Source: Branchiostoma floridae (taxonomy: Eukaryota > Chordata > Leptocardii > Amphioxiformes > Branchiostomatidae). From it: a stretch of 64,000 nt of DNA. The stretch lies in assembly GCF_000003815.2 (NCBI RefSeq), contig NC_049980.1, positions 16,568,021-16,632,020 of the forward strand. The letters run 5' to 3'. Shown here piece by piece: positions 13,758-56,573 of the stretch (position 1 is its first letter; every line of letters starts with the position of its first letter). Position numbers and translations under genes: made by a program. The notes below the pieces were generated by a model. That model searched no databases. It was not told the DNA's origin and saw only the letters and a program-made list of their open reading frames with translations.

Positions 13758-16169
13758 AAGTTCAGTTGTTGTAAACAGTGCTATTTCTGTGTAAATTCTA
13801 AACAGCCTAGGTGAGGAATGAATTATTTAAAATATGTACGAGGTTATACTTCTGAGATAAAGCAACTGTTGCTTCATGTATACTTTTTTTGCAGTCTGGC
13901 ACCTTGCCAAAAAGGGTTGAAAAAAAAAAATAACTGGAAGATACATAATAGTATGTACATACTTATATATTCCTAGGCAGAAAGACACTATAGATATTAT
14001 ATGTCTTCCCATGCGTATTGCCTGGCTATAGTTATATGTTCTTATTGTTGTTCTTATGTTCTTACTTAATTGCTCACTGATGCTAAGGAGAAATAGACAA
14101 ATTGTGTCAGTTACAATATGCTAACATGTTGCATTGATTTTACATGTAGATAACAACTTCCTGGCGGATAAAATGATATTATATTGTTCATGTCAATCAT
14201 CCTCTATCAATGGCATTGGGTCATTTCATACAATTTCACAGTGCAGAAAAATCAAGCCATACTACACAAGTCATGTAAAGTGTTACATATCCACTCACTT
14301 TATTCTTCAGCTGGCACATCATTCTGAGTCTGAATGGGACACTGCACCAAAGACAGGCACTCCAAAATGCACAATAATGTCCCACAGCAATGATGTTTAC
14401 ATTCACATAGTTTCTTGCACATTTTGCAATAGTTTCTTTACAAGAAATAAGACAATGTGAAGAAATAGCAACTTCTCGTCACATACCTCTGAGTCAAAAC
14501 ACTCAAGTGACATACATGTACATGTACACGTATTCCCATATCAAACATGGTTACTCAGATGGACTGATGAGGCTCTTTCAGGGTTCTGAACTTCTGTTTA
14601 CAAGTAGTCTCAACCTGCACAATATAGTCCTAAACTGTGGGTTAAAGAGTTACACATAATATCAAAGCCATACATGTACGGGGAGCAAGTGCTCTATACA
14701 ATCTTACAGCATTTGTGCTAAATAACAGGGTTGCCTGTTGGGTTAAATGCTTTCCATTTAGTGTACATGACATAACGCAGTTTGATCAATTTCATCTATA
14801 GCTTTTAAGCCATTGTCAGTACTATAAAACGGCTTTGAAAGAGTTAAATTTGTAGAAGTTGAGAAACAAAGTACAAATGTATCAAGAGATCTGAAACGTT
14901 CAGTGGATGGTATCATTTTAGGTTGGAGATTGAGTGTGAGTGCAAGTAAGGCTCACAAATGCAGTATTTTGAATTTTAAGTCTGAGAAATATGGCAACAT
15001 GCCAATGTTACATGTAGGGCTAACACAAGTTAAAATTTTCATTTACAACAAAAATGAGTTGGCAGAAATTACAACCGAATAACTGCAATTGCCCCTAAGT
15101 AATCAGACTGACTAAAAGGACCAGCATAAATGATCAAGGGAGTCCCTTTAGTTTCTATATCAGTTAGAACCAATCATCTTGTATGGAATGCTTCATAGCT
15201 TGTAACAATCCCAAAATGCAGCTTGTCTCCGAGGAAACAACATGAAATTTCTGTCAACTTAATTAGTGACCACCTGCAAATCTCTAATGAGACTCCAGAT
15301 CAAAGTTTAACAGTTTAGGAGAAATTCGTTGAGTGCATTGCAATGTTAGCTTTATACTTGTGCAATAGATTAATGGGAGGGCCATCATTTACAGAGATGA
15401 CAGCGGCATTCAGTAAATTACCCATGCAGTCACCTTTCCTATGCCTCATGTCATTATCATCAGCCATGCACTTTCATCAGTCACTACTAGTGGCAGTATG
15501 ACATAGCATTGATATCCTCTTACAAAAATAGTACATCTTCCATGTCAGGAGTCCATAGTTTTGCCCCCTGAACACACACAGGTTCCAATTTTCAGGTAGA
15601 GCATTTGTGAAAAATGCTGCATTATCCCACATACAAGGTTTTGTGCCACCTTTCCATCACTTCAGCATTGCTTAGTGTGGAAACCAAACATGACAACAGT
15701 TAACAACTTTTTCCTTGCAGCTGTTAAAATTTAACATTTCCACGAACTACGCAAGGACTAAAGCAGCACATTACAAAATAAAGAGTGCAAAAGACCAGAC
15801 TCCATGAACAGAAGGCATTGACCATAAACTTAATGCTAACATTTATACATTGTTCTGCAAAACTTGCTTTCAATTACTTTTCAATTACTAACAAACACAA
15901 TTAACGTGCAGCATTGTTCAGTCTCCAGACATGACAAAAGTACATGTACATCTGATGAATTATACTACAAGATGTTACAGATGTAGGGTTTCCATTTGTT
16001 AAGTGAAGATGTTAAACAGTCAACTCTCTCCTGATTTTAGATTATTGTCCAATCTTCCAGAGGTAGAAACTGACGAAAGGGTAGAACAACTGTACTGAGG
16101 AGTTTGTTTTCCATTGCGGTGGGCAAGTTTGTCAAATTTCAAAAACTCAACAAGTCCAGACTACGATAC
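13758..16169. other. 3' flank of the MEI1-like gene, no gene seen
   Basis: AT-rich sequence that should include the MEI1-like 3' UTR. I found no AATAAA close to the stop codon and no further exon, structured RNA or repeat. A 108-codon frame at 14134-14460 has no coding hallmarks and no recognisable similarity. Confidence 0.4.
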
Positions 16170-16171
16170 TA

Positions 16172-17005
16172 CAGTCAAACCTGCCCAAGACGACCACCCG
16201 GGGGACCGGACAAAAACGGTCGATTTGGACAGGTGGTCGCTGAGAAGAGTATCGACTCAAAACATGCCCTATGCGAAGTATAACGGTTTCCGTTGTGTTT
16301 AATGGCAAATAGCAAGCACACTGCACGCACGCAAAGAAGCGAGGTATTTAATGTCAAATACAACACGCACACGGTAAATTGTAAATTTAACCCCAGCTTT
16401 TATACAATACAGTATAATATTTGTACATTAACGTTTTAGACAGTAAGGGAACTTTGATGCTGTCAGTAACCATACAAGCCTTTATGCGTCGCTATGTTCT
16501 TGATCGCCGTATCTGAAATAACTACGGTGCATCTTTCGAATTCTATGCCCGGTACGTCCCAATAGCGTACTTACCCAAGGGTGAATGCACAGTACAGTTG
16601 GACAAAAGCACTCACACAGATCTTCCTTTAAAAGGTATGAGCTACACAGATCTTTCTTAGAAATTTCCTCCCATATTACAGTAGACTGCCCCATTGACCA
16701 CCCATTGACCGCCGCAATCTTTATTCTAAACATAAATGGCAGTCAATCCGACGCAAACTGGTCGATTTTGGCACAAAATCGCGCTAGTTATCATCAAAAA
16801 TCGATGAAAACCTCAATTTTGAAAACGATGCGGCGGTCGTTAGGGGCCCAATTTGGGCCGGTCGCGGTCGCGTTGGCCAGGTGGTCGTTGAGAAAAGGTC
16901 GCTTAATGCTTACGTCAATAGGAAAAAAAATCGGGACCGAGAAAAAGCGGTCGAAATGGCCAGGTGGTCGCTGAGAAGAGGTGGTCGCTCGGGCAGGTTT
17001 GACTG
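16172..17005. mobile_element. MITE with CAGTCAAACCTGCCC ends and TA target duplication
   Basis: The left end CAGTCAAACCTGCCCAAGAC (16172) is inverted at the right end (complement ending at 17005), with TA on both sides (16170-16171 and 17006-17007). This is the pattern of Tc1/mariner or pogo-type insertions. The word GGTGGTCGCTGAGAAGAG and variants recur inside near both ends. There is no transposase frame. A truncated relative lies at 44040-44470 and a short internally deleted one at 39179-39300. Confidence 0.8.
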
Positions 17006-17007
17006 TA

Positions 17008-18687
17008 TATTCTTCCTTGTGTGTTTGAGGAAACATGTAGTACATGTTTTGGTTGTTACATAATTTCTTCATGTAGATGTATCAAGTTTGCACCTGGCAT
17101 AATTCCAATGAGGAAATCTGAGAATTATGATTCAGTGTCAGTTGACAGAATAAAGCCCATGGTTTAGTTTTTGTTGTTCTTCACAGACCTGTCTCTTTGT
17201 TTTCCGTTTAGTACCATTGGTAGACACATACTTTAAACATAATTACATCTTGCAGCAATACTCCATGTTTTGAAAAACATGAAATTCTATGTTGAACAGG
17301 TATCAACAGGTAACATTACCTTTTGACCATCACCAGCATCTAAAGACACTAACAGGCTGCTAACAGTCCCTCAGTCTGCATCACACCTATATACATTGTA
17401 CACTTATTCCTTGCATTGTGTGCATTGCTAAGAAAACAGATAATAACTCTTCCCTGTGTGCCACCTTTCACACATACAGACCACCTATCCCTAGTAGACA
17501 ACAAAGACGCACACATCTTTGCACAGGTGTGTATATATATATACATGTATGACTATGATAATTAATGGGAGAAGGCATGGTTATCTTCTAATTTCTATGG
17601 TTGTAGATACAGTATGGCTGATAATAGAGGTACATGTAAGGACCTATGTAATAGTACAGACCTTCTGTTATGTCATCAAATCAACTTGCCTACATGTAGG
17701 ACAGAATCCCAATTCTCAACAAGTGGCATAGGCCGGCAACGGCACACGCCGTGAAACTTCACGTAGTGGGCAACACTAAACATGAGTCCAATTTCAATGC
17801 TCTCCCCTAGGGCCTGTGTAAACTGTCTTGTGTCCACACAAGACCCGTACTAGACGTCACTGACTGAAGACTGTACACGTGCATTTTTTGCTGTAGACTC
17901 AGTTTGAATAATGACGTTAGTATGCGACTTTGAATCATTGAAGGATCTCCAATAACAGACCTAGGGGTAGACTTAAACAAAAAGAGAGTCCCAAATGCAC
18001 TGTATTTACTGAAATTGGCATCAGTATGGGCATTTTTCAGACGCACAAAAATTTTCTAGATTCCCAAATATCCATTCAATTAAGACATTTATCAGAACAT
18101 GATCAAACTTTTTGGAGCTCTCCTCTGAATCACTATCTTGCAAAGCTTGTGCCTGCTAGATACAACAGAGATGACACACAACCAAGTAACGTGACACTGA
18201 GAAACCAACAATCAAAATTCTTCACATTTAAACAAAGTGAAAACATTAACCTGGTAGACCAACCTGTGTTGCAGCCCTTACCATTGCATGGTTGTCTGAC
18301 ATATGAATAATGTGCCATGGTGCTATTTTCAATACAGGAAGTGTGTTCAGACTCATTCACTGAGATACTACATTTGGAGTAGCAGTTTAACATGATGCAA
18401 CAATGTGACACAACATTATACAAGTATGCACCGAGACTGACAGTCAAAACTGCTGCATTCTTAGCTTACCACTTAACACAACACTGTTGAACTACTTAGT
18501 GATACTATATGGTATTCAATGAAATATACAAGCTAAACAATGCAGCTCACTCATGACAATAATACATGGTTTACTTGACAAGTAAACTGTTATAGACACC
18601 AGATGGTCTTCCCAGTCCCACAACACTAACCACTTGATGAAGCAGTCCCGACCTGGGCACACCCTTCATAGCGTCTATCTTAGTCCC
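17008..18687. other. Intergenic and BTBD1/2 3' UTR
   Basis: Contains the minus-strand 3' UTR of the BTBD1/2 gene, whose stop is at 18688. No polyadenylation signal close to the stop was recognised. A short TATATATATATA run lies near 17531. No other gene was seen. Confidence 0.4.
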
Positions 18688-21600
18688 TTACGTGTAGAAG
18701 ATGATTTCTGGGATCTGTCCATCCTCCACTGATGTCCCGTTGTTGTTGCCGGCAGCGTACGTGAACTGGAAAATGACCTTACCGCTGCTTGGCGACTCGT
18801 GGATGACCTTCCGCATGCCTTTTGTTCCATAATGAGAATCAGGACCCTGTAATACAAGAAATGTAGGAAGCAATTCTATATCAATATCTATATCAATATT
18901 TATTTCTATATCAATAAAGATCTGATTGATTTTGATTGACCTACAATCACTGAATGATTTTCCTGAGGGTCTGCATGGGGGGTCCTGACAACGCTTTACG
19001 CTAAATTCAGGACGGTCGACTACGTTTTACGTTAAATTCCGAAGGCTGGCAACGCTTTACGCTAAATTCAGAAAGGCCGGCAACGGTTTACGCTAAATTC
19101 TGAAAGACTGGTAACACTCGGCAAGGGCGGGGGTATGCTCCGCCGGGAAGATTTTGAAATTTTGACTCTCTGAAACACCATTTCCTGCATTTTGAGGGGA
19201 AATTTTGGCTGGTAGACAAAGCTAATTTAAATGGCATATCTAATTAAAGATTCCCAGGGGTTTAGTGTAAGCCACCCAACAGATTTTTTTTACCATGCCG
19301 AGCGCCGAAGGGGCGAGGCGTCGCAAGGGAAGTTGTGAAATCCTGACACCCTGAACCGCGATTTCTTATGTTTTTCTGGCTATCATATAAAGCTGAGTTA
19401 AATGACATTTCTATCAGCAAAAAGGTGTTTGAGTTTGACATGTCACATCCCCCAACATCATTTTCAGAATTTCGAGCGCCGAAAGCGCGAGGCGGCGCAA
19501 GGGAGGACCATGAACATTTTGAAATCTTGACCCTCTAAAATGATATTTCCTGCATTTTATTTTTGATGGGCAAATTTTGCTGGCAGACTAAGCTAATCTA
19601 TAACTTCAATGACATTTCTATTAGCAAAAAGGTTTTCGAGGGCGAGGCCACCGATACAATTTTTACCATGTCGATGACCGAATAGTCGCAAGGGAGGTCC
19701 GGCAAAATTTTGAAATCTTGATCCTTTGAAACGCAATTTCCTTTGTTTTGAGGGCTAAAATTTACTGGTAGACTACGCTTCGACTTACGAAATTTGGGAG
19801 GCCAGACTACGATTTACGGGTAATTTTTAGGCTAGATTACGTTTTACGTAAAATTTTTGGGCTAGATTACGCCTTACGTGAAATGCAATGGCTACGCTTT
19901 ACAGTAAATTTTCCATCCTCACTACGAATTACGGGAAATTAAAAGGCCTGCCTACGCCTTACGGAAAAGAGCATGCAGACCCTCTTTCCTATCTTACCTT
20001 GAGAGTTGCACAAGCGGTGTAGCTGACGTTGGGTTGGATCTCCACAGGTTCCTTAAACATCACGCGGAAGGTGGCATCTGAGCCGTCACAGCTGAACCCA
20101 GTATCGTTCTGCCCCAGCACAGTCCCCGAGTCTGTCTGGATAATCTGAGGGAACAGACAAAAAGCGAGATGTTCTAATAGAGAAGTCTTGGACAATAGTC
20201 AGGCTTATTGCACACTTCAAATCTTGATACAGTTTTGACATCAGTCATAGACAGAGGGCAGGACTGACAAATATAGAATACATCATTGTATGTCCTTGCT
20301 TTTTTCATTTATTATAACATTGGGTTTCTCACCAGTCTTAATGCTACGGGTTGACCGTTCAGCATATACACCCTCATGACTTCCACGATAACTTTACATT
20401 TCATTGCTCCTGAAATCTGCCTGTCTTTCACAACCTCAACATACATGTACTTTCCTCAGAGAACACTGACCTGGATGTTGACTTGGTAGTCAGTGGGTCC
20501 ATGAATGGATCCATACAGACCAAACCCAACAACAAAGATGTGTCTGTTCACCACAAACCTACAGGAACATAAATAGGCATTTCAGCATGTTTCAGCAAAA
20601 TGTCACTCCATTCTTTAACATTTGCTGCAATATTCTACTATATTTCTAGACACAAATATTGACATGAAGATATGAATATTCAATAATGACTGGAATATTG
20701 CTTGAGGATATATTATGAAATACACAAAAATATAAGGAAGTTCATAAATGACTAAAAATTCATGAGATAACACTGTAACTTTTGTAAATATTTCCACTAT
20801 ATAAACTACTGCAATTGCACAGTACTATTTACTCTACAAATGTTTTCTATTTTGACAAGAAATGGTTAGAAGTGAGCTGTAGAATTGTAGTCGTGCAGCC
20901 TGGGCCACAAAGCCATTCCATGGGTTATCCCCACATGTATGAATGTGACTTGTGCACAAAGTTGTACTGACCTGATGCGATCAGAGGTCCCACTGTACCC
21001 CCAGCGACTCTCCACCTGCTGGAAGCGGTTGATGGTCTGCTCCTTCCCTGTCAGACAGCACCGCGGTGAGTCCAGGAATTCCACCGGAGGTTTGGGGTTC
21101 ACCGTGAAGTGTAGAAATAGACTGACGACCTCTCGGTCCGTCAGGATCCCGGACTGCGCCGGACCGGAGGCAAACTCTTCGATGGTCATGAGAGGAAAGC
21201 GGATGAGGCGCAGGGCCTGTCCCAGCGCACGGCGCTTGTTTTCCGGGGTGGCGGCCAGCTGCTGTCTCTGGCACTCGTGCTCGGCCCACCTGACAACGGC
21301 GACGAATAACTTGCACTCGCGGATTCCCAGGGTGTCTCGCTCCAGGACCACATTCAGCGTGTCCAAGTCAATGTCCACGAAACCCTCCGCTGCAAGAGCT
21401 TCTGAAGTGTTCTTGTCAATCGTCTCCAGGCAAAGCTGGGCCAGTTGTGGCTCATCAAACAGACGGGCCTGGGTCAGGAGCATGAAGGCGTTGTCGCTGC
21501 TCAAATTCTTCTTAAGAAAGTCCACACATGCCGACTCTAAGGCAGGAACGGCATACTTTTTCGCAGTATAAAGCGTAGTCATGACAGTTTCTGGTCCAAT

Positions 21601-22677
21601 CTGAACTTCGTCGGAATAAAGGAAACGTAGGAGAGCAAGGAAAGCAGCAGGCTCTACGTCTGGCAGCTCTACTTCAGCTGAAGTGGTGGCCATGCCCCCG
21701 TTAAACATGGCATCAAACACTGCACTACCAATGGCCAACACAAACTGCAGGAGAAGGGAAAGAACTCTGGTTATGTCTCTTTTACATGTAGACAAGATAA
21801 AGCATTCCTATAATTGTACTTATCTGTTTTAACTGTAGCTAACAGAACCGTATTTGACAGACGACAAACAAAAAAGAAAAGGAACACCTTAATTTGAATG
21901 ATTGACTTTGTTCCAGGTATACAACTATCCTATGCTATAATACTCAGATCTAAAAGAAGAAAAACACATATTCATCTAGCTAGGTAGGTACATGTTTGTT
22001 GCAATTTTCTGATTCTGAGACACAATATTACTTTACAGAAGTGACTACAGTAACATGTAAATGACAGACATACAAGACTGCTCCCAAATGTAAAAACTTT
22101 CTTATTGGTAATGTCAGTGACCCAAGCTGTCATCACATAGCTTTCCATGTTTGGTATTTCCACCTCTTGCACGGTTGATTAGCGATAATTGTCATGTCTC
22201 AAGTTATATTTTGGGCAGTATTTGTCTGTTTGTCACTAAGATAACTCAAGAACCTGCTGGATGGACTGGTTTTAAATTTTGCATGTGAGTATGTTGTAAC
22301 AGAAACTGTAAAATATTGGATTATAGGCTTTCCTGGCAGCTTTCCACAGTACAATTTCCTGTTTCTTCCACCCATTACAAATAAATGAAATCATCTTCTA
22401 CAATTATATAAATATACAAGGCCCGACACTAACAGGCTTTGTGGCTTTCAACAGACATACTCCAATAGTTTTGATAAATGTGATAGCTTCTGGAGGGCTC
22501 AAACTGTGTTCTAATATCATCAGTGTCTCATCTGTTGCCTACCTTGTGTGCAGGGATCCTCTGCATCCCTTCACCGCGGCCCACGATGAAGTGCACATCG
22601 CTCATCACTTCATTGTTAAACATGTAGGCAAGTCTGTCCTTCACTGTGGTCTTGCTAGCCTGCCAGTTGTACATGGG
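18688..22677 (-). CDS. BTBD2: BTB/POZ domain protein BTBD1/BTBD2, missing first exon
   Basis: Five exons on the minus strand: 22543-22677, 20972-21744, 20471-20558, 19998-20144 and 18688-18846 (stop). Borders are GT-AG and phases consistent, giving 433 codons. The protein closely follows vertebrate BTBD1/BTBD2. A BTB domain runs from [12 protein letters not shown] through [13 protein letters not shown] and [23 protein letters not shown] domain contains [18 protein letters not shown] and [14 protein letters not shown]-terminal PHR domain runs from [19 protein letters not shown] to the conserved end [24 protein letters not shown]1/2 are cytoplasmic proteins reported to bind topoisomerase I and to act with cullin-3-type ubiquitin ligases. 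The first exon, usually a low-complexity N-terminus before the (P)MYNWQ motif, was not found; it may lie in the gap at 23845-23944. One lancelet gene probably represents both vertebrate paralogues. Confidence 0.95.
18965..19984. mobile_element. Repeat-built inverted-repeat element in the last BTBD1/2 intron
   Basis: The ends GAGGGTCTGCATG (18965-18977) and its complement (19972-19984) form an exact 13-bp inverted repeat, flanked by a 6-bp direct repeat TTTCCT (18959-18964 and 19985-19990). The interior has no gene. Each end is a minisatellite of words like ACGCTTTACGCTAAATTC (18990-19105) or CTAGATTACGTTTTACG (19775-19965). The middle is about four diverged units of roughly 185 bp, each with GCGCAAGGGAG, TTTTGAAATCTTGA, ATTTCCTGCATTTT and GACATTTCTAT-like words. 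The element starts only 12 bp inside the intron from the donor of exon 19998-20144. Confidence 0.65.
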
Positions 22678-24133
22678 CTGCAAACAAACATGCAAACATT
22701 AGCACACTTGTCAACAAACATATCATATTTCTCGTCTATTTTCGCCCTGTATTGTAACTCATGTCAGAATGGGAAATTGTCTGTGCATGGTCACACATGG
22801 CATCAGAATAAAACATCATACAACATGGAATCTATCCAAGCTCATACCTCCTGCAACAGTGACCCAACAACTCTCACCAAACTTCTGTTACTTATGCTGG
22901 TATTGTAGGTATTGTATTGTATTGTACAACAGTATTCTTCCACTTTCACTGATGTCACAATTCTGTAGCACAGTAATAACTAGCAACACATTGGAAATGC
23001 AAAATTCACAAAGTCGTCAATTTACGAAGGAAATATCACAATCAAAAGCATGAGAATATAACAAACACAAACATGTCAAGATCTTTTTTTGCCAGGAACT
23101 GTCTGTTGTATGCTAGGTTGTTAGTTGTTACAGACACAAGTTCATGTGTTGGCTTGCACTGTTGAATCACTGCCAAGAAACTACAGAGGAAATGGGCATC
23201 TCTATTTCTGTTACATTGCTCACCCAGTCCCCCTAAATGATGAAATCAAATTAAACCAAGGAAGACCAACTCCTACCAGACTTAAGTCAACTTAGATTTG
23301 ACGAAGCTTGTATTACATTTACAATGTACATTTAGCAACAGTTGCATCCTTGTAAAGTGTACAAATGTACATCACCATTGCTCTACTGGATATTGACTTT
23401 ATTGTACATCATGTGTATGAACAAACTAAAGTCTATAGGTATAACTTTCAGGGGTGTATGAAATATCTAATTTTGCTAAGAAAGAAATATCATGTAGATA
23501 TCATTACCATTGTATTAAATCTCAAACGTACTATTCTTAAATTTGTAATGTTTAAGTTAGTCTGAGTATTACCTTTGAGTCTATGACAGCTGTCAATGTG
23601 CGCTGTTTTACAGTGTACAGGTAACGTTTACTGCACATTAGCTACATGTGTGTGCTGTTTTACCTTGATATGTGTGTAGTTTGTGCTTCTTTGTCTGACT
23701 GTATGCTATATATGCTGTTTTACCTGGATATGTGTGCTGCTTTACTTGAATAAGTCCTGTGTATGGTGCTGTTCTTCAAGGATGTGTGCTGTCACTGTCA
23801 GTATCAATAACTCCTGTGGTAGGTTTATGGCATGATCGCAACAANNNNNNNNNNNNNNNNNNNNNNNNNNNNNNNNNNNNNNNNNNNNNNNNNNNNNNNN
23901 NNNNNNNNNNNNNNNNNNNNNNNNNNNNNNNNNNNNNNNNNNNNTATGTGGATTGATTTGATTCATTGCTTTTAAGAAACACCAGTGCTTTCCAACTTCT
24001 TTAACTGTACATTTTACAGGAAAAAATTATGCATTCTTTCTACTTATCAAATTATGTATCGAAGTACTATGGAGACACCTGGAATAAATGTGTCCATTAT
24101 CTGTTTTGAGTTTTTTTATTTTATTTATTGTAG
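22678..24133. other. Region between BTBD1/2 and the DUF6589 gene, with a gap
   Basis: Should hold the missing first exon of BTBD1/2 (minus) and any 5' exons of the DUF6589 gene (plus). A 100-bp gap (23845-23944) may hide one of them. The stretch 23600-23840 has loosely repeated GTGTGCTGTTTTACCT words (about 55-70 bp apart). I could not place a promoter. Confidence 0.4.
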
Positions 24134-27100
24134 TCCACGGTTTGAAGACAGAGGCAACCCTCCAAGCACGTCGTCCAACATCTATCCAACCAGTCCTCCA
24201 AGCACGTCCAACATCTATCCAACCAGTCCTCCAAGCACGTCCAACATCTATCCAACCAGTCCTCCAAGCACGTCCAACATCTATCCAGCCGGTCACAACA
24301 ACACATACTTTCCATCCCCCATGTACCAGTTTTCACCTTACGTAAATCATGGCATCTCCTCTCCACTGTTGCATCCTCCATCTCCAGCCTACCATATGTC
24401 ACCAGGAGTAAATGCCCAGTTTCATCAGCCATCGACCAGCTATGCCCAGCCAACTGTTAGCTTACAAGCGTTTCAACAAATGGAGGACAAGCTGAAGGCA
24501 CAGCTATCAAAGATGAACACACTTGTTGAGGAGCAACAAAAAGAGATCCATGATTTAAAGACTTACAGTAAGGCCAGCATCGATGCTGTTAAAAACACAG
24601 CCCAAAAAGAAGTCAAGTCACTTGTGATGAAGGATACCATTTTGACATACAATGCAGAGACTGCAACTGACATTGCGAATATGACACCACAGTCCATGAA
24701 AGAACAGGTGAAAGAGGAAGCACCAGTTTTCTTCGAGCTCCTAGAAAACTGCATCAAAAGCGATGTCCCTGGGGACAAGGACACCTCAATGTTGGCATTT
24801 CTCAATCTTTGTTCCATTGCAAACAACAGAAGCAAGCGTGCCAATGCCATACAAATGATCACCACCCTGTCACTCATCTCGAGGTCAACAAATGTGCAGG
24901 TATGTTTGCATTGATACTTAAGCATTCTTGAGATTACATAAGATTGTTTAACCCAGTGTTAATTTGTGTCACTCAGTCAAGACATTTTGTATGTTTCTTT
25001 GTCATGTGGCATGTCACTTTCTTTGAACAAAAAACAGATGCGTACATGTATTTCCAAATCAGGGTTATGAGGGATTCAAAATGTATTGAAATCTTTTTTT
25101 ACATTTCCAACAATTATTCATCCCTATGTAGGGGTGGGTACCGGTACAGAAAATTCGCGTCCAGGTCCGGTTCAGGTCCAGAGGATCAGGTCCAGGTTCG
25201 GACCTGAACCTGATGCAGTATGACTCTAGTATGACTCATACCAATGGCCCATTTCACTACAAAGAAATCTGTGTGGTAGAGTATTAGACTAACACTGGCA
25301 TTTTAAAATTCTACAACGCTAACTGCACTTGTAGGATTGGCTGTAAACTAAAACTTGGTAGAAATTGCTATAAACTTTACTTCACTCTTGTTATTTTCTT
25401 CCACCTGCAAGCGCCAAAACGTGTGAATGCCTGATAAAATAATCTGTTAATTTTCTAATCAGCCCAACATCCGGTCCTCCTAATTTTTTCTGGACAGGTC
25501 CAATAAGAAAAAAAAGGGATTGTACCGGTACACTGTACCCTGCCTAATTCCTATGTAAACCATTGGCTGTTTTTGCAGGTCATCTCCATGCTGAATTCCA
25601 TGGGTGTTGCCAGTTCCTACAAGGCAGCATGGAATTTTCTGTCCAACTTTGCTGAAATGCAGGGGGCAAAGCACCTGGACAACAGCAAGCCTTGTATTGT
25701 CTTTTTTGACAATGTTAACATTCTCAAAAGAGTGGGACATGTGAGGATGGGTGAGTCCTTAAATTGCACAAAACAGTTGTTTCACTTTAAATAAACTATG
25801 AAATGAATTGTAAAACAAGTTGTACTGTCAGATTCTATACTTTATTCTTGTGAATAGAAAGGACAGAATATTGCTAGACTGATGATTATCTCATTACCTG
25901 TATGTCTGTTTGTCTAGGGAAACAAAACGAGATGTTTAATTGGACAAGCCGGTTGGCAGTTGTGGTAGAGCATGAAGATCCTTCAGCCAGCAGAGAACCC
26001 CAGGTAACACAGGACATCTTCATTCATAGTTATGTTCGAAATGTGCTAAGCAGATACATGTAGTAGATTGAAACTGTCATATAATATGTATAACATAGTA
26101 CACTTTATTTACAGTTTGTGCTTTATCATAATCTGAGCACAAGACCAACTACCCTTTAATAAAAAACAAACATTGTGTCAATGTGTATCTTTCACAATAA
26201 ATTACATTTTGGCTATTTATATTTCAATTTGTAGGGCAAAAGAGAGGACCTGTCTGATGCAGACATACTGGCTGACAGCAATGACATAAGTGACCTCAAA
26301 AGCAGATTAAAGAATCAAGTGAAAGCTATAATAGTTGAACATTTCCCAAGCTTCCATCAGTTTAAAGACAGTGTAAGAGCTCCATCCAGCCCCTTGCCAG
26401 TTAAGAAAAGTAGCATCACCCCGCTGCCACTGATGGACAAGGATGAGTCGAAAAAGGATGATACAATTCAGATTCTGCTCAAATTTGCTGAAGAGCTACA
26501 GCTGTCTGACAACATAAAAGACCAGGTACGATATGTAAACATGGAGTCCCAAGTGTGGTAACAGAACTATCAAACATGGACAATGATAACAATAGTAGTA
26601 GTGTTGACAGTAATAACAATGTTTATGGAAATCTATTCATTATATAATTGTATACTTTTTATGAGATGTATCAATTACTTATACATGATGTTTGCCCATC
26701 GGGTGTCAATGGAGATATGACTTCCGAATCTACGGAACTTATACATATTACCTTATAAATGATACATTGGTTTTGCTGCTATTAGGCAGTCGTCGGCGAC
26801 CAGGCGACTTGCAAAAACATCCGTGGAGGACGAGGATGGAGAGAAGGCGAGGAGGATCCTGTTCAGCTGTTACAGTGGGCAAAGGAGAGTCCAGGTAATG
26901 TATTTCTTCTATGCTTTTAAAAAACAATCACAGTACATGTATTATGTTGCTAAGAAGGAAAATGAATATCTTTATGTGTATTGCTGACTCACATAATATT
27001 TGTGTATGAACTAGTGTGTCCTATTCTGCATAACAAATGCTACTTTTGATAATAGGGGTTGTAATTGCTCAAGTGTACAATAATAAATTGTTTTGCTAAC

Positions 27101-28580
27101 TTTTTTTGATTAACAAATGTCTCCCCCCCACCCCTTTTGTTTTTTTCATAGGTGACTTTCACTTTGTGTGGGAGGCCCTGAAAACAGCTACGCTGTGCTG
27201 CTGGGGCCTGGCCACAGAAGCAGGCTCTCTCTCACAGATAAGGGTTGCCATCAACCGGATGCGGGCGGACAAGGAGTGTAAGAACTTTCAAGTTTCTGAC
27301 GAGTTCTTTTGCCAAAGAGGAAAGGACACATCCTAGCTGCCCTCACAGTTTTCCTCGGTCTGGAGTCACCTCAGGAATCCTACAACTGCACCTCTCCCCA
27401 TGACTTTGACTCTATAGCTTCAAAGTTTGTTACAGAAGTAGTGTTTCCAGGCCAGTGGACTGAAGACAGTGACCAAGTGCAGACCAGAGCACGCTTCATG
27501 TTGTACCTGGGACTGCTCTACCTGGACTTAAGGACAGCAGTAAGGTAAGTTGCTTCTGTTACCTACAAGTCATTTTTTAAATCAATAGTATGTACAAGAG
27601 CTATGTACAAAGTGACAAGGAGTAGTACAATAACACAAATGTACTTTGTGATATCTGTATTGATGTGAATGGGATGATGTATGATAAATACATGTCAATT
27701 TGTTTTGAAAATGTTGTCCTGATCCAGATACCAAATGGGTGAGGCTGTAATCCAACATTGGAAGGTCTGGTTTGAGCTGTTTCTGGGGACAAAGAGGAAC
27801 AACTACGCATGCGAGGCTGCCAACCTTCTCGCCAATCTGAAGGCTGACTGGTCCCCGTATATGGCCTACATCCACACCCACAACCGCTGTGTGAACATCA
27901 CGGGAGAGGAAGGCAAGGGCAAGCCGATAGACATGCTTGGAGAACACCACAACAGGTACATGTTATTATTTATCTTGTATTGTACAAGTGTATGATTTAC
28001 TTGCTGTGAGTAAATGTTGACTATTTGACTTTGAGCCTTTAACCATAACCATACAGTCAAAAGGACACTTATTAATATTAATGCGTGAACTTTTAACCTT
28101 CACAGGACCATCAAGCAGACATGCCGTGCAGCTGGGGGACGACTAGAGTTCAAACACGCCCAGGACATAAGTCTTTCTGTGCAGCTGTTTGACGCCGCCA
28201 AAAACTTCGCAGACAGCTTGTGTTCTAAGAAGACTACACACCACACAACGACATCTGCAGAAGTGGACATTCAGTCAGTAATGACAACAGTCTTAAAACA
28301 CGAAGTGTATCACAACAAACCAGGGAGGAGCTTGAACCCTGAGTGGTTGGACCCACGAGCTGTTGCAAGAGAGCGACTGTACGACAACAAATGGCTGGCA
28401 AACTTTCTCACTCGTGGAAAGCAGGACATCTCTGACGATACAGAGCCACCTGAGTCCCCGGATGCTGATGACGGAGAGACAGACGAGGACAGCGCCGAAC
28501 AAGTTGAAGTCAGAGACGAAGAGGATCCTGAGTGGGAGGAAATCGAGGACGCTGACCTTATCAACTTAGACCTAGCATAA
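24134..28580 (+). CDS. DUF6589 domain protein, one frameshift, 5' end missing
   Basis: Exons: 24134-24899, 25579-25750, 25918-26003, 26235-26525, 26786-26894, 27152-27544, 27728-27955 and 28106-28580. All have GT-AG borders and fitting phases, about 839 codons. The N-terminal part carries four 11-residue repeats (PPSTSNIYPTS type), then a Pro/Tyr-rich stretch and a coiled coil (around residues 115-150). The rest matches the DUF6589 family: IVFFDNVNILKRVGHVR, AVVGDQATCKNIRGGRGWRE, GDFHFVWEALKTATLCCWG, and a later GLLYLDLR/IQHWKVWFELFLG region. The C-terminus is acidic. DUF6589 has no assigned function. The spaced invariant Asp residues (FFDN, VVGDQ) recall RNase-H-fold transposases, which is my inference. 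One base appears missing in the T run near 27308: the frame closes at 27336 while the homologous frame continues from 27309, and the total exon length is one base short of a whole number of codons. The upstream start is not located. Confidence 0.85.
24159..24292 (+). repeat. 33-bp coding tandem repeat in the DUF6589 gene
   Basis: Four units of CCTCCAAGCACGTCCAACAT followed by CTATCCAACCAGT, keeping the frame and encoding SPPSTSNIYPT repeats. The first unit has a 3-bp difference (TCGTCC) and the last diverges into PAGHNN. Near-identical units imply recent expansion, and copy number is likely polymorphic. Confidence 0.9.
25131..25549. mobile_element. hAT-like non-autonomous element in a DUF6589 intron
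   Basis: An 8-bp direct repeat CCTATGTA lies at 25123-25130 and 25550-25557. Inverted imperfect ends contain GGGTACCGGTACAG on the left and the complement of GTACCGGTACAATCCC on the right. A local direct/inverted repeat of CCAGGTCCGG and GGTCCAGAGGATCAGGTCC sits at 25160-25210. There is no transposase. It fills most of the intron between exons 24134-24899 and 25579-25750. Confidence 0.55.
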
Positions 28581-28597
28581 GGTTAGTACTCTTGTCT

Positions 28598-28642
28598 CTT
28601 TCATTTGTACATGTACTACATTCGCTCATGTACAAATGAAAG
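28598..28642. repeat. Perfect 16-bp hairpin just after the DUF6589 stop codon
   Basis: CTTTCATTTGTACATG (28598-28613) is followed after 13 nt by its exact complement (28627-28642). It begins 18 bp after the DUF6589 stop codon. It could fold in the 3' UTR or be a terminus or recombination relic. Confidence 0.85.
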
Positions 28643-28659
28643 AAACCCTAGGATCACAC

Positions 28660-28842
28660 AATGAAGGTCCTGCAGGAGTACTGTCCAACAGTGCAATAAA
28701 AACCCAAGCCCAAAGCATCCAGAAAGGTGAACATAGAAAGATGTTTCAAAAGTATCCACGATTTAGTATGAAGAAAATAGCACCAATCATTCTCAACAAT
28801 ATTGGCGAGAAGTTTCCCAAACCTATCATTAAAAATAATTAG
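28660..28842 (+). pseudogene. Inverted, diverged copy of the RecQ-like last exon
   Basis: Read on the plus strand this stretch encodes GPAGVLSNSAIKTQAQSIQ, then KKIAPIILNNIGEKFPKPII and a stop at 28842. The minus-strand helicase gene ends with GPAGVISDSAI, IKTQAQSIH, EDIAPFILDKIEQEFPEPII. At DNA level the two share GGTCCTGCAGGAGT, GACAGTGCAAT (one mismatch) and AAAACCCAAGC. It is thus an inverted duplicate of the helicase C-terminus, 44 bp or so from the original, lying in the likely 3' UTR of the DUF6589 gene. No intron or upstream helicase exon accompanies it. An AATAAA at 28695-28700 within it could serve as the DUF6589 polyadenylation signal. Confidence 0.75.
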
Positions 28843-28846
28843 CTAA

Positions 28847-31629
28847 CTAAACATTTGTCAAATCCCCAAGGGCCCTTCTTCTTCTCTTGATGATAGGTTC
28901 AGGAAACTCCTGTTCAATCTTGTCAAGAATGAATGGTGCTATGTCCTCTGAAACACCTTTAACCTTCTTACACAGGTCTTCCACTGTGTGGATACTTTGT
29001 GCTTGGGTTTTGATTGAAATAATTGCACTGTCGGAAATCACTCCTGCAGGACCAACATGTGCAATCCTCATGTCGTCTTCAAAAAGCTCATTCCTCAGTT
29101 CGTACAGGCTTTTTTCCAGTTTTTTTTAATCGCCTTCCTGTCTTTTCTTTTTTCTGGTCGCAGCTGCCCTCTTTGCTGTCTTGTGGACCCTGGGATGCAG
29201 CAGGTACGCTCCCCGTGGTGCTGTGGCCTCCTCCTGGCAGACAGAGCAGCAGTGGTCTGTGTCTGCCGCCTGACTGCCAAGTTCCTTCAGCATCACAGCG
29301 CGGATGCAGGACCGCTTGGCCACGAACTGCTTCAGGCAGTCTTCAGCGTCTTCCTCTTCCTTACACTTGCCAGCAAAGACGACAGCAGTGGCTGGCTCCC
29401 CTGACCTCCCAGCCCGGCCAATCTCCTACAGAAGTAAAAGTACAGTAGCATTAGCTTAGACTTAAGTTTCATTGCTTTCAAAACGTTGTAAAATATATAG
29501 AGAGTGGCTTTGTTTGAGATCTTACCACTTTTGATGTAATACAAGTGAGCATGACCTGATAATTAAACCGATGTAAAATAACTGATAAAGGAAGAAGCAC
29601 ACTTCCATGGAAAATACCCAGATTTGCTAAGTTTAACATAGCAGAAGCATGCATATTGTATTATGTCTTCTATTTGGTTGGTATCATCATGAATTATGTA
29701 TGAGATTCTCACCTGGTATAGCTGGCTCATGGACTTTGGCAGGCCATACACCACAACACAGGAGATGTCAGGGATGTCAATGCCCTGAAATTGTTATTGT
29801 AGAGTTTTAAGAAACAGGAATGTTTTCAGAAATATATATTTTTGTACAATAGCTAGAAATTAGTACATGCAAAATAATGTGTTTGAAAATATGGCAAATT
29901 GTTTGCCAGCATGCAGTTATAATGTCACTTAATGCTGTTAATTAAGAACCATTATGTACACTTACCATCCCAAAAGCCACTGTAGCCACAACTACCCTGA
30001 CCTCGCCATCCTTGAAACGTTTAAGGACTTTGGCCTTGAGGTCAGGGCTCATGGAACTGTGGAAGTAGGCCACGGATGCTTTGAACCTGTCTCCCGCATG
30101 GGCCTGCAGCATCTTCCACACATCCATGGCCTGGTTTCTTATAGGCACATAGATAAGCTGCTTCTCGATGGCCCGTCCATCTTTCCTTAGGGCCTGCAGT
30201 AGTCCCAGGAAGTCCTTCTGAAATTACCAGTTATTACATACGTGCGTTAAGTAAACTGTGCATTGAATAAGTGCAGATACAAAATGGTTTCCATAAAGAT
30301 ATGGTATGCACAGTTGTCATGTTTTTCATATACATGTATCTGTTAATGTAATATGAGAAAAGATAGGTGAATTGAAGTGTTTCAGTTACCTGCATTGCGA
30401 TCTTTTTCTTGGAGACCAAGAAAAGATTTGGTCTGTCGAGACTCCCACTGATGTGGATGTTCCCTTCCCGAAAAAGAAGATCCTTCTTGATGCCTTCCAC
30501 AGCATTGGGGGAGGCAGAAGCTGTGAGGGCCATGACTGGGGTGTTGAGACAGTGGGCCCTCAGTCCGCCTATCTGTGCAAATGCTACTCTGAAGTCGGGA
30601 CCCCTGAAACAGATTGTATATACAGTACTATTAGAACTATGCCAAAACTTATTATGTCTACACATAGGCACATCTAGATAGAGGCAATACAGTTGTAGTA
30701 AATCATTTAGCAACCTGTTTAGTTTTAACAAAATTGCTACACACCCTTTCTCTGTCACTTGAAAGAATTAAATCATTCTTACCACTCAGGGATACAGTGG
30801 GCTTCGTCCACGACAAGGGCACACACAGGTCTAGTTGTGGTGAAAATGCCCCTGCCCTCTCCCACAGCAACTTCTGGGCTGGTGTATACTATAGAAAAGT
30901 AATGAGAAAAAAATTATAAGCAAAAATATACCTATGTTTACGAGTATTTATGTAACTGTAACTTACAGATTTCTGTGGTAAATTAAATCTGTATAACAAG
31001 GTTCAAGATAAAAGAGAAATGACAGGACCGTGGCTACAATATATTTTGTTATTCTTGTCTAGCAACTGGTGTAAATAGGATAACTTGAAATAAAAAGGAA
31101 GTACAACAAGTGTGATACATACCTAGTTTGACCGACTTGTCTGCCACTGTGTTGATGTCGTTCGCCGACTTCAAGTGAATTGCCTTGTATCCCGTTGTAG
31201 TGGTGTACCGGGCGATCTGAAATGAACGGTAAGTGTTCTCATTATTTATCTTCAGCGCTTCCGCAGAGTGAAGAGTCTCTTACAATTCGAGTAAACATTC
31301 AGTTATCCTTGGTTAGTGAGGGAGGGGGGCGTAACTCAGGTCCGCCGCCGGTAGGCATTTTATGGAGATATATACAATATAAAATTTACCTGGTCATCGA
31401 TGAGTGCTGTCAGGGGACTGATGACAATCACAAATGGCTCGTCAGAGTCCAGGCACGACGGAATCGCCTGGAAACAGAACGTCTTTCCAGCTCCGGTCGG
31501 TAGCCCGACAAACACGTCTTGGCCATTTAAAATACCCAAAACAGCGTCTGCCTGGCCCTGTCGCAGTGTGTCGTACTCGAAAACATCTTTGCCAACACGG
31601 CAAACGCGGTCCATCAAATTGGCTTGCAT
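28847..31629 (-). CDS. RecQ-family DEAH DNA helicase, in-frame stop near the C-terminus
   Basis: Exons on the minus strand: 31390-31629 (ATG at 31629), 31123-31216, 30783-30888, 30390-30603, 29966-30217, 29713-29784 and 29126-29425. They give 425 residues to a TAA at 29126-29128. The same frame then stays open to 28847 for 92 more residues, which are conserved in the inverted copy at 28660-28842, so the ancestral protein was about 518 residues and the stop looks like a mutation or sequence error. All RecQ motifs are present: GLPTGAGKT (Walker A), VISPLTALIDDQ, YTSPE, VVDEAHCIPEWGPDFR (DEAH plus aromatic loop), ALTASA, SGSLDRPNLF, ATVAFGMGIDIPD, and QEIGRAGRSG across an exon join. A zinc-binding segment with C..(15+)..HCCSVC follows. 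No HRDC domain is seen. The family unwinds DNA 3' to 5' in repair and recombination. It is convergent with the DUF6589 gene. Confidence 0.9.
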
Positions 31630-32269
31630 AGCCACCAGAGTAAATACAAGTAGTTACCAGATTAAACACGCAGTCATCAAAATAAACACTGTCAAAATGG
31701 ACCGTTACTTTGAAAATTTCATGTGACCTTTGACACTTCCGGTCACATGTGACAGGATCGTCGCTCCCGCTTGGACCGTCACGGGCGAGTCGGAAAGCAA
31801 TAAAAGTGTTATTTAGCCACTTCGCACCTATCAGATAGCGATTAGTGGAGATCAAACAAGGCACCGGGATACCACAGACTCCGACGATCGCGTGCTGTTC
31901 CCTGGCCGGTTATATTCCTCTGGCCGGCTTACTCCTCTGATTTGTTACATTTCTACGATTTTTCCAGCGATCCGGAGTCTGGTAGAGACTAGAGTTCATC
32001 TATCTTTTAACTGTCCCGTGTTCTGTGAAATAGGTGGGGTTTGTGATTTTAATGAAACGTAGACTTTTGGTGATTTACTAATTGGCAAGCGCTCGGACAA
32101 ATTGTGGCAACAGTTTGAAATAAACTTTCTTTCGGTCCCGTCGTGAAAACATTTTCCACTGCATTCAGTATGCAATACTTAATTATAATAAACAGTCTAA
32201 CGTGGACAAATAGCTTCTTATAACGACCTCTCTATCTCTAATGGATAAGCGCTTATTCTTATCTTAGAT
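31630..32269. promoter_or_regulatory. Divergent promoter region, RecQ-like gene and WTAP
   Basis: These 640 bp separate the helicase ATG (minus) from the proposed first WTAP ATG (plus). An ATGGCGGA word, the core of the YY1-type motif, overlaps the WTAP start at 32270. A direct repeat CCTGGCCGGTTATATTCCTC / CTGGCCGGCTTACTCCTC lies at 31900-31939. No TATA box is obvious. Confidence 0.4.
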
Positions 32270-35200
32270 ATGGCGGATCTTTATTCGAACTCAGGTAATT
32301 TTCCATCGAATATATATTTGGATTTGAAACCTTTGTAGCATATTGGCTTACCATGATTTGTAGACGATTTGTAAAATAATTTTTGACGTACATATCCTCT
32401 CTTTAATTAACAATGTACATATATTCTTATTGTCTACAGGGTAATTGGTGTTCCATAAGAGGGAATATCATGAAAGTTGGTGTAACCAGCTCTTCTTGCA
32501 ATTATTTACCATTTTGTATTGTTGACACAGTAAAACGTTCACCTGTAAGGGATGTGTGTGGATGTCCAGTTGCTTCAGCCTCAGCCAATACTTAGGTACA
32601 AGAACACTGATACATCCATATCTATTTGGAATACCCCGAGTTTTGCCCTACTAGCTAGGTTACACGAATTTCTGTGTGCACTAAGGATCGGTGTTTTTAC
32701 AAAAGCGGTTCTATATGTTAATATTTCAACAGGGCAATTGTCAGTGCCCTTTGCCTCAGATCTCAACAGAATATAACATTGTAGACTTGACATATGCATT
32801 ATCGTGTTTAAGTAGGGCCTTAGGGAATAACGCAGTCTGAATGAGGGTTTTGATACCGAAAGCGGCTTTCTGTGCCTTTCAAGACAGTTGATTTAGCTAA
32901 AGAATAACTGCCTGACGAGGACAGGCCTGGATAAAGAGCGTCATTTGGAAACTTGATGTTCCTGAAAGTCCATCCCAATTTTTTTAAAACCACCACTTTA
33001 GTTTTCTTTAGTATTGAATCTTCCATTTCATGTCCAGTGCACGCAAACAAAACACGCTTCTCTACGTCTACGGCGACAGTGGTGTCCTGTCTGAACATGC
33101 ACCTGCATGATCATGAGTCGTGGGAAATTCCCTGACGAGGTGACGGCCCAAAACCCCCACGCCTCTACGGCGACAGTGGTGTCGTGTCTGAACATGCAGC
33201 TGCATGGTCATGAGTCATGGGAAATTCCCTGACGAGATGACGGCCAAAAACCCCACGCCTCCATACATGATCGTAAATGCGCGATTTTATTTTTACAAAA
33301 ATGAATTTATGACGATTGTGAATTAAAGAAATGTGGGATTTTTTTTAAAATTGCAGATATAACGACAGTGAATGAAAGACATGCGGGATTTTTTTTTTCG
33401 AATGCCAATATGACGACTGCGTATGAAAGAAATGCGGGATTTTTACGAATGCGATTAGGACGATTGCGAATAAAAGAAATGGGGGATTGTTTACAAATGC
33501 AATTATGACGATTGCGATCGAAAAATGTGTGATTTCTTACAAATGCAAATCTGACGACTGTTAGTGAAAGAAATACGGGATTCTGTATGGATGCAATGAC
33601 GACGACTTTGAATTAAAGAAGTGTGGGATTTGTTACAAATGATGACGATGGTGAATGATGAAGACATGTGGGAAAGAAATGCTACTAGTTATAGCAGCAC
33701 CCCAATGAGTCCACACAGTATAGTCAGGACCGTAATTGAACTGAACATAAAATGGACATGCAAGAGAATGATTTGTTTTTCCGGTCATTATTTTGATCGC
33801 AGCTACCAGTAGTCTACCAGAATCTGGTACCGATGATGACTAGCGTGTATGTTGGTTGACAAAGACATTGAGAAATGATTGTTTCTAATAGAAAATTTAC
33901 GGGTGAGCAGTGACGCTTGTACGAGGGAGTTTCAAACTCTGGCGGCATGACAAATCCCCGGTGAGCTTATCTAAAGGTGCCCTCTCACTGCACTTGCGTC
34001 ACTGCGGGGTTTGTTCACTGCGTTACTGTTTTGCTATTTTCTCCGATATATTTCAGAATTTAGATATTGCGTAATACGTAAAAGTATGAAGACGACAATT
34101 TTACGCTATATTTTGAGATGTTGACAGCAGAACTTGCAACAGCTAGACAAAGATTAGCCTGGATGTCAGACGGCTTCCAACTTCTCGGCTCAAGGGCTAA
34201 CATGTAGTCTCCACCAGACTGACTACGCTGGCTGTTATAGGGAGAATACTTTGCCTGGGAAGTTTTGCTACCAGAGGCTTTGGTCGGCCGCGTAATCCCA
34301 ACCTGATTTAACCTAATAGCGTGTACTGATTCCCCTGGCCAATTTCCCGATTTTATTGCCGAATTTCACGATCCCTGGACCCACGTAGGAAGGTGTAGTC
34401 TACCCAGCATGCTCCGACTAAAGAAATTCTACAACAGACCCCCCAGTTATATTTTACAGATACGTTGATATGTTTATCTTTTTTTAGCAGAAGTGTTCTT
34501 GATGCAGGTGCCTATAGAAGAGTCCATCCTCACACAGGGAGGGGCAATCGTTTAAATGCAATTCTGGACAGGGTGATTATGCGAAGTCCGTTCTTTGATG
34601 AGAGGAGCTGTAATTGAACGGGTCCAGTTTACATGAAGATAGCGCTACAATACTCCATTACCCTGCGAGAGAGTCATTTTGCTAAATTTAATTTTGGACT
34701 GGAGTGCTTAGGCAAAGTCCATTTTATTTTAGAGAAAGTGTTTCTAAACCAGTGCATTTCACATGTGGATGCTGGCCAATGGAAGAGTCCATTCTCGCAC
34801 AGTTAATTTTTAGCCTGAATAAATCTCGCTTAATCTGATTAAATCTCGCTGTATAGCAGCCCGCCCAACATCCGCCGGCCCCCTAGAGGAGGGGACAGTT
34901 ACAGCCCTGGACAGCGGAGTTTGCGTTGCACAGACTAAGTTAATTTTTGAGCAGAAGGATTATTGAACTGGTCCACTACATTGTAGTTGTCGACACATGT
35001 CACAAGAAAAGTCCATTCTCTTTTTAAAGATTCAATCTACGAATTTGATGATAATGCATAAGGAACTTCTTTGGTAGGGCTCATGCATAGTCCATTTTTA
35101 ACCGGAAGTGTTTTTAACGTCAATATTAATATTTATGTTAATTTATCCCGCATAAATTACTCACACGCAAACCTGTATATATATTTGCTGCAACAGCTAA

Positions 35201-38200
35201 TATTTAACTCTAGTTGCTCTAGCGACTCTAGCCACAGTCAAAGATACAAGTATAGCTGTACTGATGTCCAACAGTTATGTATCTAAATGTTTTAACTTTG
35301 TGATTTTCTTTTCTCGTTGGAAACAAACTCCCTCAACGATAGATTTGATGAGAAATTCGCCTAGTGCATGTTTTGTTCAGTTTTGACCTCTGACCCTCAT
35401 ATGCATACAAAACAGATTTTAGTGTTAGGCTGCTTTAGTTTACCGCATTGTAACGCCAAGAGGCCGGAAACAAAGGTTTAATGAAAGAAGTTTGCAGTTA
35501 AACCAATTTCAGAACAACTGAATCTGTATTTTTTTCAATATTCAATACTATACTATCATAGTTTCCAAGTTTGTACCAGAAAGTGTTGCTAACTCCATAA
35601 CAAAGTACTGTACTTACTCACGTTACTGAAATTTTTACGTTAGTTTTATGTTTGTGTTTTTGGTGGTGACAGCTTAAGTAAAAAATTAAAACTATTGTTT
35701 TCATTCCTGCCCAGTATGTGAATACGATATTTTTAGTTTTACACTCCACTTTCTTCCTTCTGCAAACTGCATCATGAAATTGCAGTTTTATCTTGATATT
35801 GTGTTTGCAGCATAAATATCAATATCTAGTTGTAGAAAATAGTGCTACTGCAGCTAGTATGCAGTTTTATGAGTTTCATATGTTTTAACAAAACATTTTT
35901 AATTTACTTTTCAGGGTCTAGAGTCATGTCTGAGGGTGACCCTCCACCCAAGAGGGTAAGTTCTCTGGAAAAAAAAATCATATTTAATAAATCTATACAA
36001 GCCACAGTTAGGCCAGATATAATCTCAAAACAGATCCTACGGTAGCGATAGTATCAAAAGCAACCAGAGGAGTGAAGCTTGGCTACCTAGGAAATGGCAA
36101 ATGTACACCTCTTGACTGACTACTTTCCTTGGCCGGTTTAGAACTATCTTATGCCATGGTAGGATCTGCTTGGAGATTAGGCCAGGTAGTTTTTTTTTTT
36201 TTTCAATTTTTAAAGGTTTAACAAACCTGTATGGAGAGGAAAAAAATCACATGTTACGGTACACCAGAAGCTGCCATGACAAAATACATGTAGCTGTCAT
36301 TAAGTAAAATGCAGTAGTGTATTTTTATCACCACAGAAAAAGAAAATCAATAACTTAATTTTGTTTGAGACCATACTTTGTGTAGCCTCTGACGTTAGTG
36401 GGACAATGGTCACATTTGTCTTTACTTTCTTGTCCCAAGCGTATAGGGCAAAGATTAAATAGAAGTAAAACTTGCCAACATACAGAAAGTATGTAAGGCA
36501 GCGTCTTAGATTAGTTGGCATTCATACTTATTAATCAGTGGTGTTTATTTTGATCTTTAATCTCATAGAAGTAAATAATCAGCTGAATATTCTATTATGT
36601 TATTATTTTACTTGTTCGTAGCATCTCATTTTTGTTAAGATTATAACATGGATGTTAATGTCTTTTTCTCCAGGTGAAACTAAGTGAAGAAGAAGTCAGG
36701 AAACTACCCAGAGATGAGTTGGTGAAAATGTGAGTAAAGCCAGGTCTTAGTATGAAAATAATGATGATGAGATTTTCATACATAGCAATTAAGCTTTTAA
36801 TGTTCCTTCTCTAAGACTAAGAGACTTAAAATTCTCCCAAGTGACCTTTCAGTGTATTTGGCAGTGTCCATTTCCATTTTGATAGCTCTTGGGCCACACA
36901 GTTGTTCAAGTACTACAGTAGGAGTTTTTTTCCTTGATCAGATATTAATCTGAAACACAGGCCAAGGAAGGTAGATGAATTATTGTAGACTTGGCCTCAG
37001 TGTTGTCATTAGATTTAAAGCTGACATTGTTTTTGGAAGTATGTAATTGTGGTTAGTGAAAGTTTACATACATAATTTGACACAGTCTTAATTTGTTTCC
37101 CCACAGCTGGTCGGAGCAGAATGCCTATGTCCAGTCTCTGGAGACTAAGAACAATGCAGGGCCCAGCTCAAGTACTGAATGTGAGTATCTAGAAATTTAG
37201 ATCCTACTGTGACATGTGGAAGTGGGTTTTAACCATTCACATAGAAGTTTATCTTACACCGGTCATGACTAAGAAGACAGTCACTACCTACAGTATATCC
37301 AAGATCATTGTGCCATTTCTGTATTTGTATCTTATTGCACAATGGATAACCGCACACCTCCGTTAATTGCACAGAATCCCCAAATCCCAAACCGGTGCAG
37401 TCCAGCTGGATAACTTCACATTATTGCACCATCCAGATAATACATTGGCAAAGGGTGTGTGCAATTATCCGGATCCTCTACAGTGCTTAGAAAATATTTC
37501 AGCTCTTTGTTGCTTATTGTCTGTCCTGACGTTGCCCCACCCCCTAACCTCCCCCACCCCAGGTGAAGAGCTGACGGGTCTGCGTGAGTCGGAGGAGAAA
37601 CTGAAGCAGCAGCAGCAGGAGTCGACCCGGCGCGAGAACGTTCTCGTCATGAGGCTCGCTACCAAAGAACAGGAGATGCAGGAGATAGCTGTAAGTTCTG
37701 TACTGCTGAATACGCAGGCTGCATTCTCAACTGTAGGTCTGTGAAAAGAAGACAGCTAGGAACATATGAATATGTCACAGTAGAGATCACAATCCAGTAG
37801 AATCGCCGATTCTCCTAGAAGAGATCGCGATCGGAGATGGTCCTAGGTGAGATTCCGATCGTGATCTGTACTAGGAGAATCGGCAATTCTACTAGAACAG
37901 ATTGCAATCGGGAGCTGTCCTTGGACAAACTCCGATCCAATCTCTAATGATGCTAAGATGTAGGAAACAGCAATACTTTTCTTGATAAACAATGATTTTA
38001 TTTAGTATATATATAGGAAAACCAGAAATTCTGCTGTAGTATCAAGAAAAAGCCACCAGTGACACACAATCGACCATGCTCTTCCTGTCCCCAACATCCA
38101 CTCACATACCACAAGTATCTTATCATATCATATTATATAGAGTTTCAGTGACAGGCAGGATAATGCCTATGAGCTTCTTCAGCAAGTGTCCATGGTTAAC

Positions 38201-56536: not shown

Positions 56537-56573
56537 ATTAGCCGTCTTGCATTGCATCCAAGTTGGTTGCTCC

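Follow-up and report, generated by a model that had tools for sequence, protein, structure and literature searches.

Two genes face each other in a 64-kb stretch of the lancelet Branchiostoma floridae (contig NC_049980.1; the whole stretch analyzed is called the window here): a DUF6589 gene on the plus strand (24134-28580) and a RecQ-like helicase gene on the minus strand (31629-28847), with stop codons 266 bp apart. Is this pair a mobile element and, if it is, of which kind? We consider it reasonably probable that the locus is an AcademH-like DNA transposon with RecQ, now decaying, and that the DUF6589 protein is its transposase. Mobility is inferred from analogy, from decay and from a second copy of the helicase tail. 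We favor this reading because the RecQ-like helicase is not close to any one host paralogue, because a second, reversed copy of its tail lies next door, because each gene holds one disabling change, and because RecQ helicases of Academ and Kolobok elements, in one case encoded on the complementary strand, are reported in passages of three papers (PMC3627910, PMC10045372, PMC9587614).

Structure of the two genes

A preliminary description of this DNA had placed a plus-strand DUF6589 gene and a minus-strand RecQ-like helicase gene whose ends lie within about 270 bp, and their order, coordinates and families are as it gave them. Splice sites in both genes were picked by eye as GT-AG, and it is the one frame running through each model, not the sites themselves, that provides independent evidence. 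The DUF6589 gene has eight recognizable exons on the plus strand, separated by introns that are GT-AG in all seven cases, and its GC content is 0.486 in the exons versus 0.334 in the introns. The exons are as follows:

24134-24899, plus: exon 1 (first one found); begins Pro/Ser-rich and continues with a stretch of helical appearance, judged by eye
25579-25750, plus: exon 2; FFDNVNIL, with the candidate first catalytic Asp, D299
25918-26003, plus: exon 3
26235-26525, plus: exon 4; the match to PF20231 begins here
26786-26894, plus: exon 5; VVGDQ, with the candidate second catalytic Asp, D443
27152-27544, plus: exon 6; the frame breaks within 27300-27336
27728-27955, plus: exon 7; NYACE, with the candidate third catalytic acid, E635, and the motif N.TG..G.....D...EH.N
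28106-28580, plus: last exon (8); acidic C terminus, stop codon at 28578-28580

An earlier 5' exon is probably missing from this model, because position 24134 follows a likely acceptor site; a gap of 100 N lies upstream of the first exon found (23845-23944). That same exon contains a 33-bp minisatellite (24172-24294; 3.7 copies, 97%), and since its unit length is a multiple of three, the frame is kept.

The spliced protein, with X over the frame break, matches the Pfam model PF20231 (DUF6589) from position 3 to 410 of 410 at 186.1 bits (E = 1.1e-54), which exceeds the gathering cutoff of 27 and covers essentially the whole model. Pfam describes PF20231 as a "Family of unknown function." Both Asp motifs claimed earlier, FFDN and VVGDQ, are found in the spliced protein, at D299 and D443. 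Although the model is matched end to end, FFDN lies N-terminal of the match, which begins at residue 343, and thus outside it. By inspection, the order and spacing of D299, D443 and E635 could fit a DDE transposase with a large insertion, and we propose these three residues as the candidate catalytic acids of a putative DDE-type transposase, which would have an RNase-H fold. In Pfam and NCBIfam, the DUF6589 protein matches no named transposase family.

The helicase gene comprises seven exons on the minus strand, and all six of its introns are GT-AG:

31390-31629, minus: exon 1; start codon at 31629, Walker A PTGAGKT
31123-31216, minus: exon 2
30783-30888, minus: exon 3; DEAH box
30390-30603, minus: exon 4; motif III
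29966-30217, minus: exon 5; motifs IV and V, Helicase_C
29713-29784, minus: exon 6
28847-29425, minus: exon 7; motif VI EIGRAGRSG, Cys-rich stretch, in-frame TAA at 29128-29126 and a 92-codon tail after it

The protein belongs to the RecQ family, scoring 249.8 bits against NCBIfam TIGR00614 (recQ_fam; curated cutoff, 219.8). Its residues 12-345, which form the helicase core, align with the PDB chain 4tmu, a RecQ (E = 2.9e-46), and by this alignment core motifs I to VI are present, including the DEAH box. The motif patterns that we used for the helicase were derived from its own sequence and serve only to locate the motifs.

A host RecQ orthologue is expected to stand out with one paralogue. 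Among the best 60 of 204 PDB sequences, whose chain labels carry no species and for which no control was run, the best scores by label were 161 bits for RecQ, 153 for WRN, 145 for BLM, 142 for Q1, 137 for Q5 and 132 for Q4. Because the paralogue scores lie close together and none is above the RecQ-labeled chains, the helicase appears to be no obvious orthologue of one host RecQ, and it would fit a mobile or divergent RecQ rather than one of the usual five. The RecQ zinc-binding, RQC and HRDC domains are RecQ features, though absent from some members; none was found with Pfam at E up to 5, although in such a search the HMMER filters remove the majority of weak matches. By eye the protein shows a Cys-rich stretch, but a self-written zinc pattern gave no match. 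The helicase thus resembles the cellular RecQs (RECQ1, BLM, WRN, RECQ4, RECQ5 and bacterial RecQ) in its core and in passing the curated family cutoff, but it is about equally distant from all of them and has no listed RQC or HRDC domain.

The interval between the stop codons and the lesions

Two features occupy the 266 bp between the stop codons (28581-28846):

28594-28646: hairpin just behind the DUF6589 stop codon; two 20-nucleotide arms, 95% complementary, with 13 nucleotides between them
28666-28833, plus: reversed, diverged copy of the helicase C-terminal tail, without helicase core; 53% amino acid identity, E = 7.5e-9

The inverted-repeat material that had been noted in this interval is therefore present, but it is duplicated coding sequence of the helicase tail and not a pair of transposon ends. 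The hairpin has no second full copy in the window, as judged by a short-match search. Between the reversed tail copy and the helicase stop codon lie 13 bp, and at the DNA level the copy is identical to the helicase tail at 133 of 195 aligned positions (68%). Over 40 gap-free codons, a small sample hand-picked from three blocks, the two tails differ at 7 first, 3 second and 13 third codon positions (chi-square p = 0.037), and NG86 estimates over the 40 codons are 0.155 for dN and 0.506 for dS. These differences suggest that the two tails accumulated changes while they were coding sequence, which would make the helicase a multi-copy gene, once present in more than one copy. They also suggest that the helicase tail behind the in-frame stop was once translated.

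Each gene carries one lesion, in agreement with the frameshift near 27308 and the stop at 29126 first described. The DUF6589 gene loses its frame in exon 6: the frame in use stays open as far as 27336 and its successor is already open from 27300, which puts the break within this overlap. The X mask, positioned by eye at about 27310-27323, covers five residues. A mini-intron was considered as the cause of the break and set aside, as neither of two GT-AG choices, viewed by eye, restored the frame. In the helicase gene, the TAA at 29128-29126 is followed by 92 further open codons in the same frame. This stop falls behind the core (residues 12-345), so the core is unbroken. The lesion load is one in 839 codons for the DUF6589 gene and one in 518 codons for the helicase gene, and both lesions lie within or beside short single-base runs. 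Judged from one sequence, the lesions may be real or may be assembly errors.

Published RecQ-bearing transposons, element ends and rival readings

AcademH elements have terminal inverted repeats. AcademH is reportedly the subject of a 2020 article by Kojima (Mob DNA 11:15), as a helicase-encoding DNA transposon of animals and fungi. The preliminary description had taken transposons with their own RecQ to be undescribed, but Academ/AcademH and KolobokH were already in print, as passages of three papers attest (PMC3627910, PMC10045372, PMC9587614). In a passage of the first, from 2013, "RecQ Helicase in Academ" is mentioned and credited to Kapitonov et al. (PMC3627910). An excerpt of another gives target duplications of 9-10 bp for AcademH and 3-4 bp for AcademX and ties the difference to the encoded helicase versus nuclease (PMC10045372). 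According to portions of a third, KolobokH carries RecQ, the RecQ of Kolobok-1_CCri sits on the complementary strand, and a C/DxxH signature lies between the second D and the last E in Kolobok, hAT, P, MuDR and Dada (PMC9587614). AcademH, KolobokH and Helitron are named as sources of helicase domains in fungi in a passage of a further paper (PMC10799480). Two lancelet papers (PMC4284660, PMC5802833) do not use the word Academ in their main texts.

The likeness to AcademH is that of a helicase-encoding DNA transposon, with RecQ mentioned for Academ in the passages cited (PMC10045372, PMC3627910); here, the helicase adjoins DUF6589, the putative transposase. The difference concerns the ends: neither for terminal inverted repeats nor for the 9-10-bp target duplications given in the excerpt on AcademH (PMC10045372) did the locus yield a signal above shuffles. 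The lack of such a signal makes membership in AcademH less probable, but the ends could have disappeared from a copy that is decayed or truncated, and an element of that kind is still compatible with the result. KolobokH and Kolobok-1_CCri likewise combine a transposase with RecQ, and the helicase of Kolobok-1_CCri, in the portion of the paper that treats it, is on the complementary strand, as here (PMC9587614). The pattern C/DxxH gave 0 matches in the DUF6589 protein from D443 to E635 or E678, with the five residues at the break masked. Kolobok itself is thus unlikely, provided that the catalytic residues are placed rightly and that the five masked residues hide no such signature. We propose instead that the locus is an old element in decay that belongs to, or lies very close to, the AcademH kind. 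The RecQ helicase encoded on its opposite strand would open the duplex at the ends of the element or while gaps are repaired.

A series of results weighs against this proposal. Searching 14000-24140 against 31620-42000 for target duplications of 8-10 bp with inverted repeats gave a best score of 11/16, compared with 10-11 in 20 Markov shuffles; matching 8-10-mers numbered 3331 versus 2539-3020 in the shuffles, an excess that local simple sequence could explain. A tighter scan, of 22700-24134 against about 31630-36000, gave a best inverted alignment of 12.5 versus a mean of 13.0 in 40 shuffles (maximum, 15.5). The best direct alignment of that scan, 16.0, lies just above the inverted-shuffle maximum; it lacks a separate control and resembles simple sequence. 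Duplications of 9-10 bp with one mismatch allowed were scanned without a control and produced six pairs, the best with 9/14 repeat positions, and none among 25 of the 45 inverted repeats connects the two flanks. With E up to 0.01, the 64-kb window yielded neither a further DUF6589 gene nor a further helicase core. A sequence search of PDB with a 675-amino-acid stretch of the DUF6589 protein returned no significant relative (best E = 1.6), and literature searches by family name, as DUF6589 or PF20231, returned no paper on the family and no link to Academ. No relative carrying the DUF6589-RecQ pair side by side was found in the viral and prokaryotic collections that the relative searches covered, where absence says little about animals. 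Lastly, host genes affected by assembly errors could likewise show long open frames through many introns with one lesion each.

Within the viral contigs, relatives were found neither for the last exon, the first exon and the 272-amino-acid middle of DUF6589 nor for the DUF6589 motif pattern and a 360-amino-acid part of the helicase. Two matches to the motif pattern in genome contigs were taken as chance: for one (L002), the best tblastn match had an E value of 0.052 and lay off the motif, and for the other (L001), the motif had an E value of 2.5.

Some of the same observations would suit a pair that is transposon-derived but settled, in which both genes or one of them has become a resident (domesticated) host gene and the lesions are assembly errors or rare alleles. 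In line with this, the frames run open through 13 introns, all readable as GT-AG, with one lesion each, in or beside short single-base runs; the hint of coding constraint in the tail comparison and the failure to find element ends point the same way. We nevertheless regard domestication as rather unlikely, given the second, diverged helicase tail next door and a helicase that is not close to any one RecQ paralogue. Moreover, the frame stays open past the helicase stop, so a one-base insertion or deletion would not account for that stop. That no shared ends were found is also what two independent pieces would predict. On this view, chance or nested insertion brought a helicase element or gene tail to tail with a DUF6589 element to which it is unrelated, and the reversed helicase tail between the genes does show local rearrangement. 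Against such an encounter stand the RecQ partners of transposases already published, one of them on the opposite strand in the passages cited (PMC3627910, PMC10045372, PMC9587614), and we hold it to be improbable.

The remaining alternative changes the assignment rather than the mobility: the RecQ-bearing transposon would come from outside Academ, from a superfamily that is either Kolobok-like or defined by DUF6589 itself. KolobokH also carries RecQ, as a passage on it states (PMC9587614), and DUF6589 goes unnamed in the literature searched by family name and PF20231, whereas the absence of C/DxxH from the DUF6589 protein speaks against Kolobok itself; we think such a superfamily unlikely, if worth keeping in view. 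Its stricter form, in which DUF6589 would be the transposase of a RecQ-bearing superfamily distinct from both Academ and Kolobok and a new DDE type in animals, strikes us as doubtful. The probabilities that we attach to the AcademH-like transposon and to these three alternatives overlap, and the question of another superfamily is partly one of naming. The two-gene mobile element proposed at the outset stands as the best reading of the divergent RecQ, the tail copy, the lesions and the published RecQ transposons, but the scans for its ends and for target duplications turned up nothing above chance.

Surroundings and meaning of the locus

The window reads as eukaryotic, with spliced genes, a WTAP exon and a BTB/BACK gene present, and the DUF6589 and helicase genes are flanked by the BTB/BACK gene and the WTAP gene:

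20869-21807, minus: BTB/BACK gene (E = 6.7e-20)
39234-39629: exon of the WTAP gene (E = 4.8e-21)

Between the helicase gene and the WTAP exon lie two adjacent tandem repeats (33067-33673), with units of 97 bp and 47-51 bp. Another tandem repeat, with a 47-bp unit (39899-40340), adjoins the WTAP exon and overlaps an open frame at 40062-40940; as the unit is not a multiple of three, the frame would shift from copy to copy. Farther along is a tandem array of units of about 1.8 kb that are 98-99% identical (45424-56539), broken by an N gap at 49733-49964 and a single N at 53426. The final stretch of the array (53427-56539) runs in the opposite orientation to the other units, possibly as the result of a scaffolding join, and Rfam at gathering scores gave no match inside the array. 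A 5S rRNA-like sequence at 6602-6721 is alone in the window in reaching an Rfam gathering score; it matches the whole model at 54.6 bits (gathering cutoff, 38) and is possibly a 5S-derived repeat or pseudogene. A dispersed repeat is present in two copies (16170-16602 and 44039-44470) that are about 81% identical across 465 aligned positions.

RecQ-bearing transposons are already known, and the pair itself is no new kind. If the DUF6589 protein is their transposase, a Pfam family of unknown function would gain a function, and it would become possible to correct annotations in which DUF6589 or RecQ-like genes are entered as host genes. Such a role would also help in asking why a transposase of this sort travels with its own helicase.

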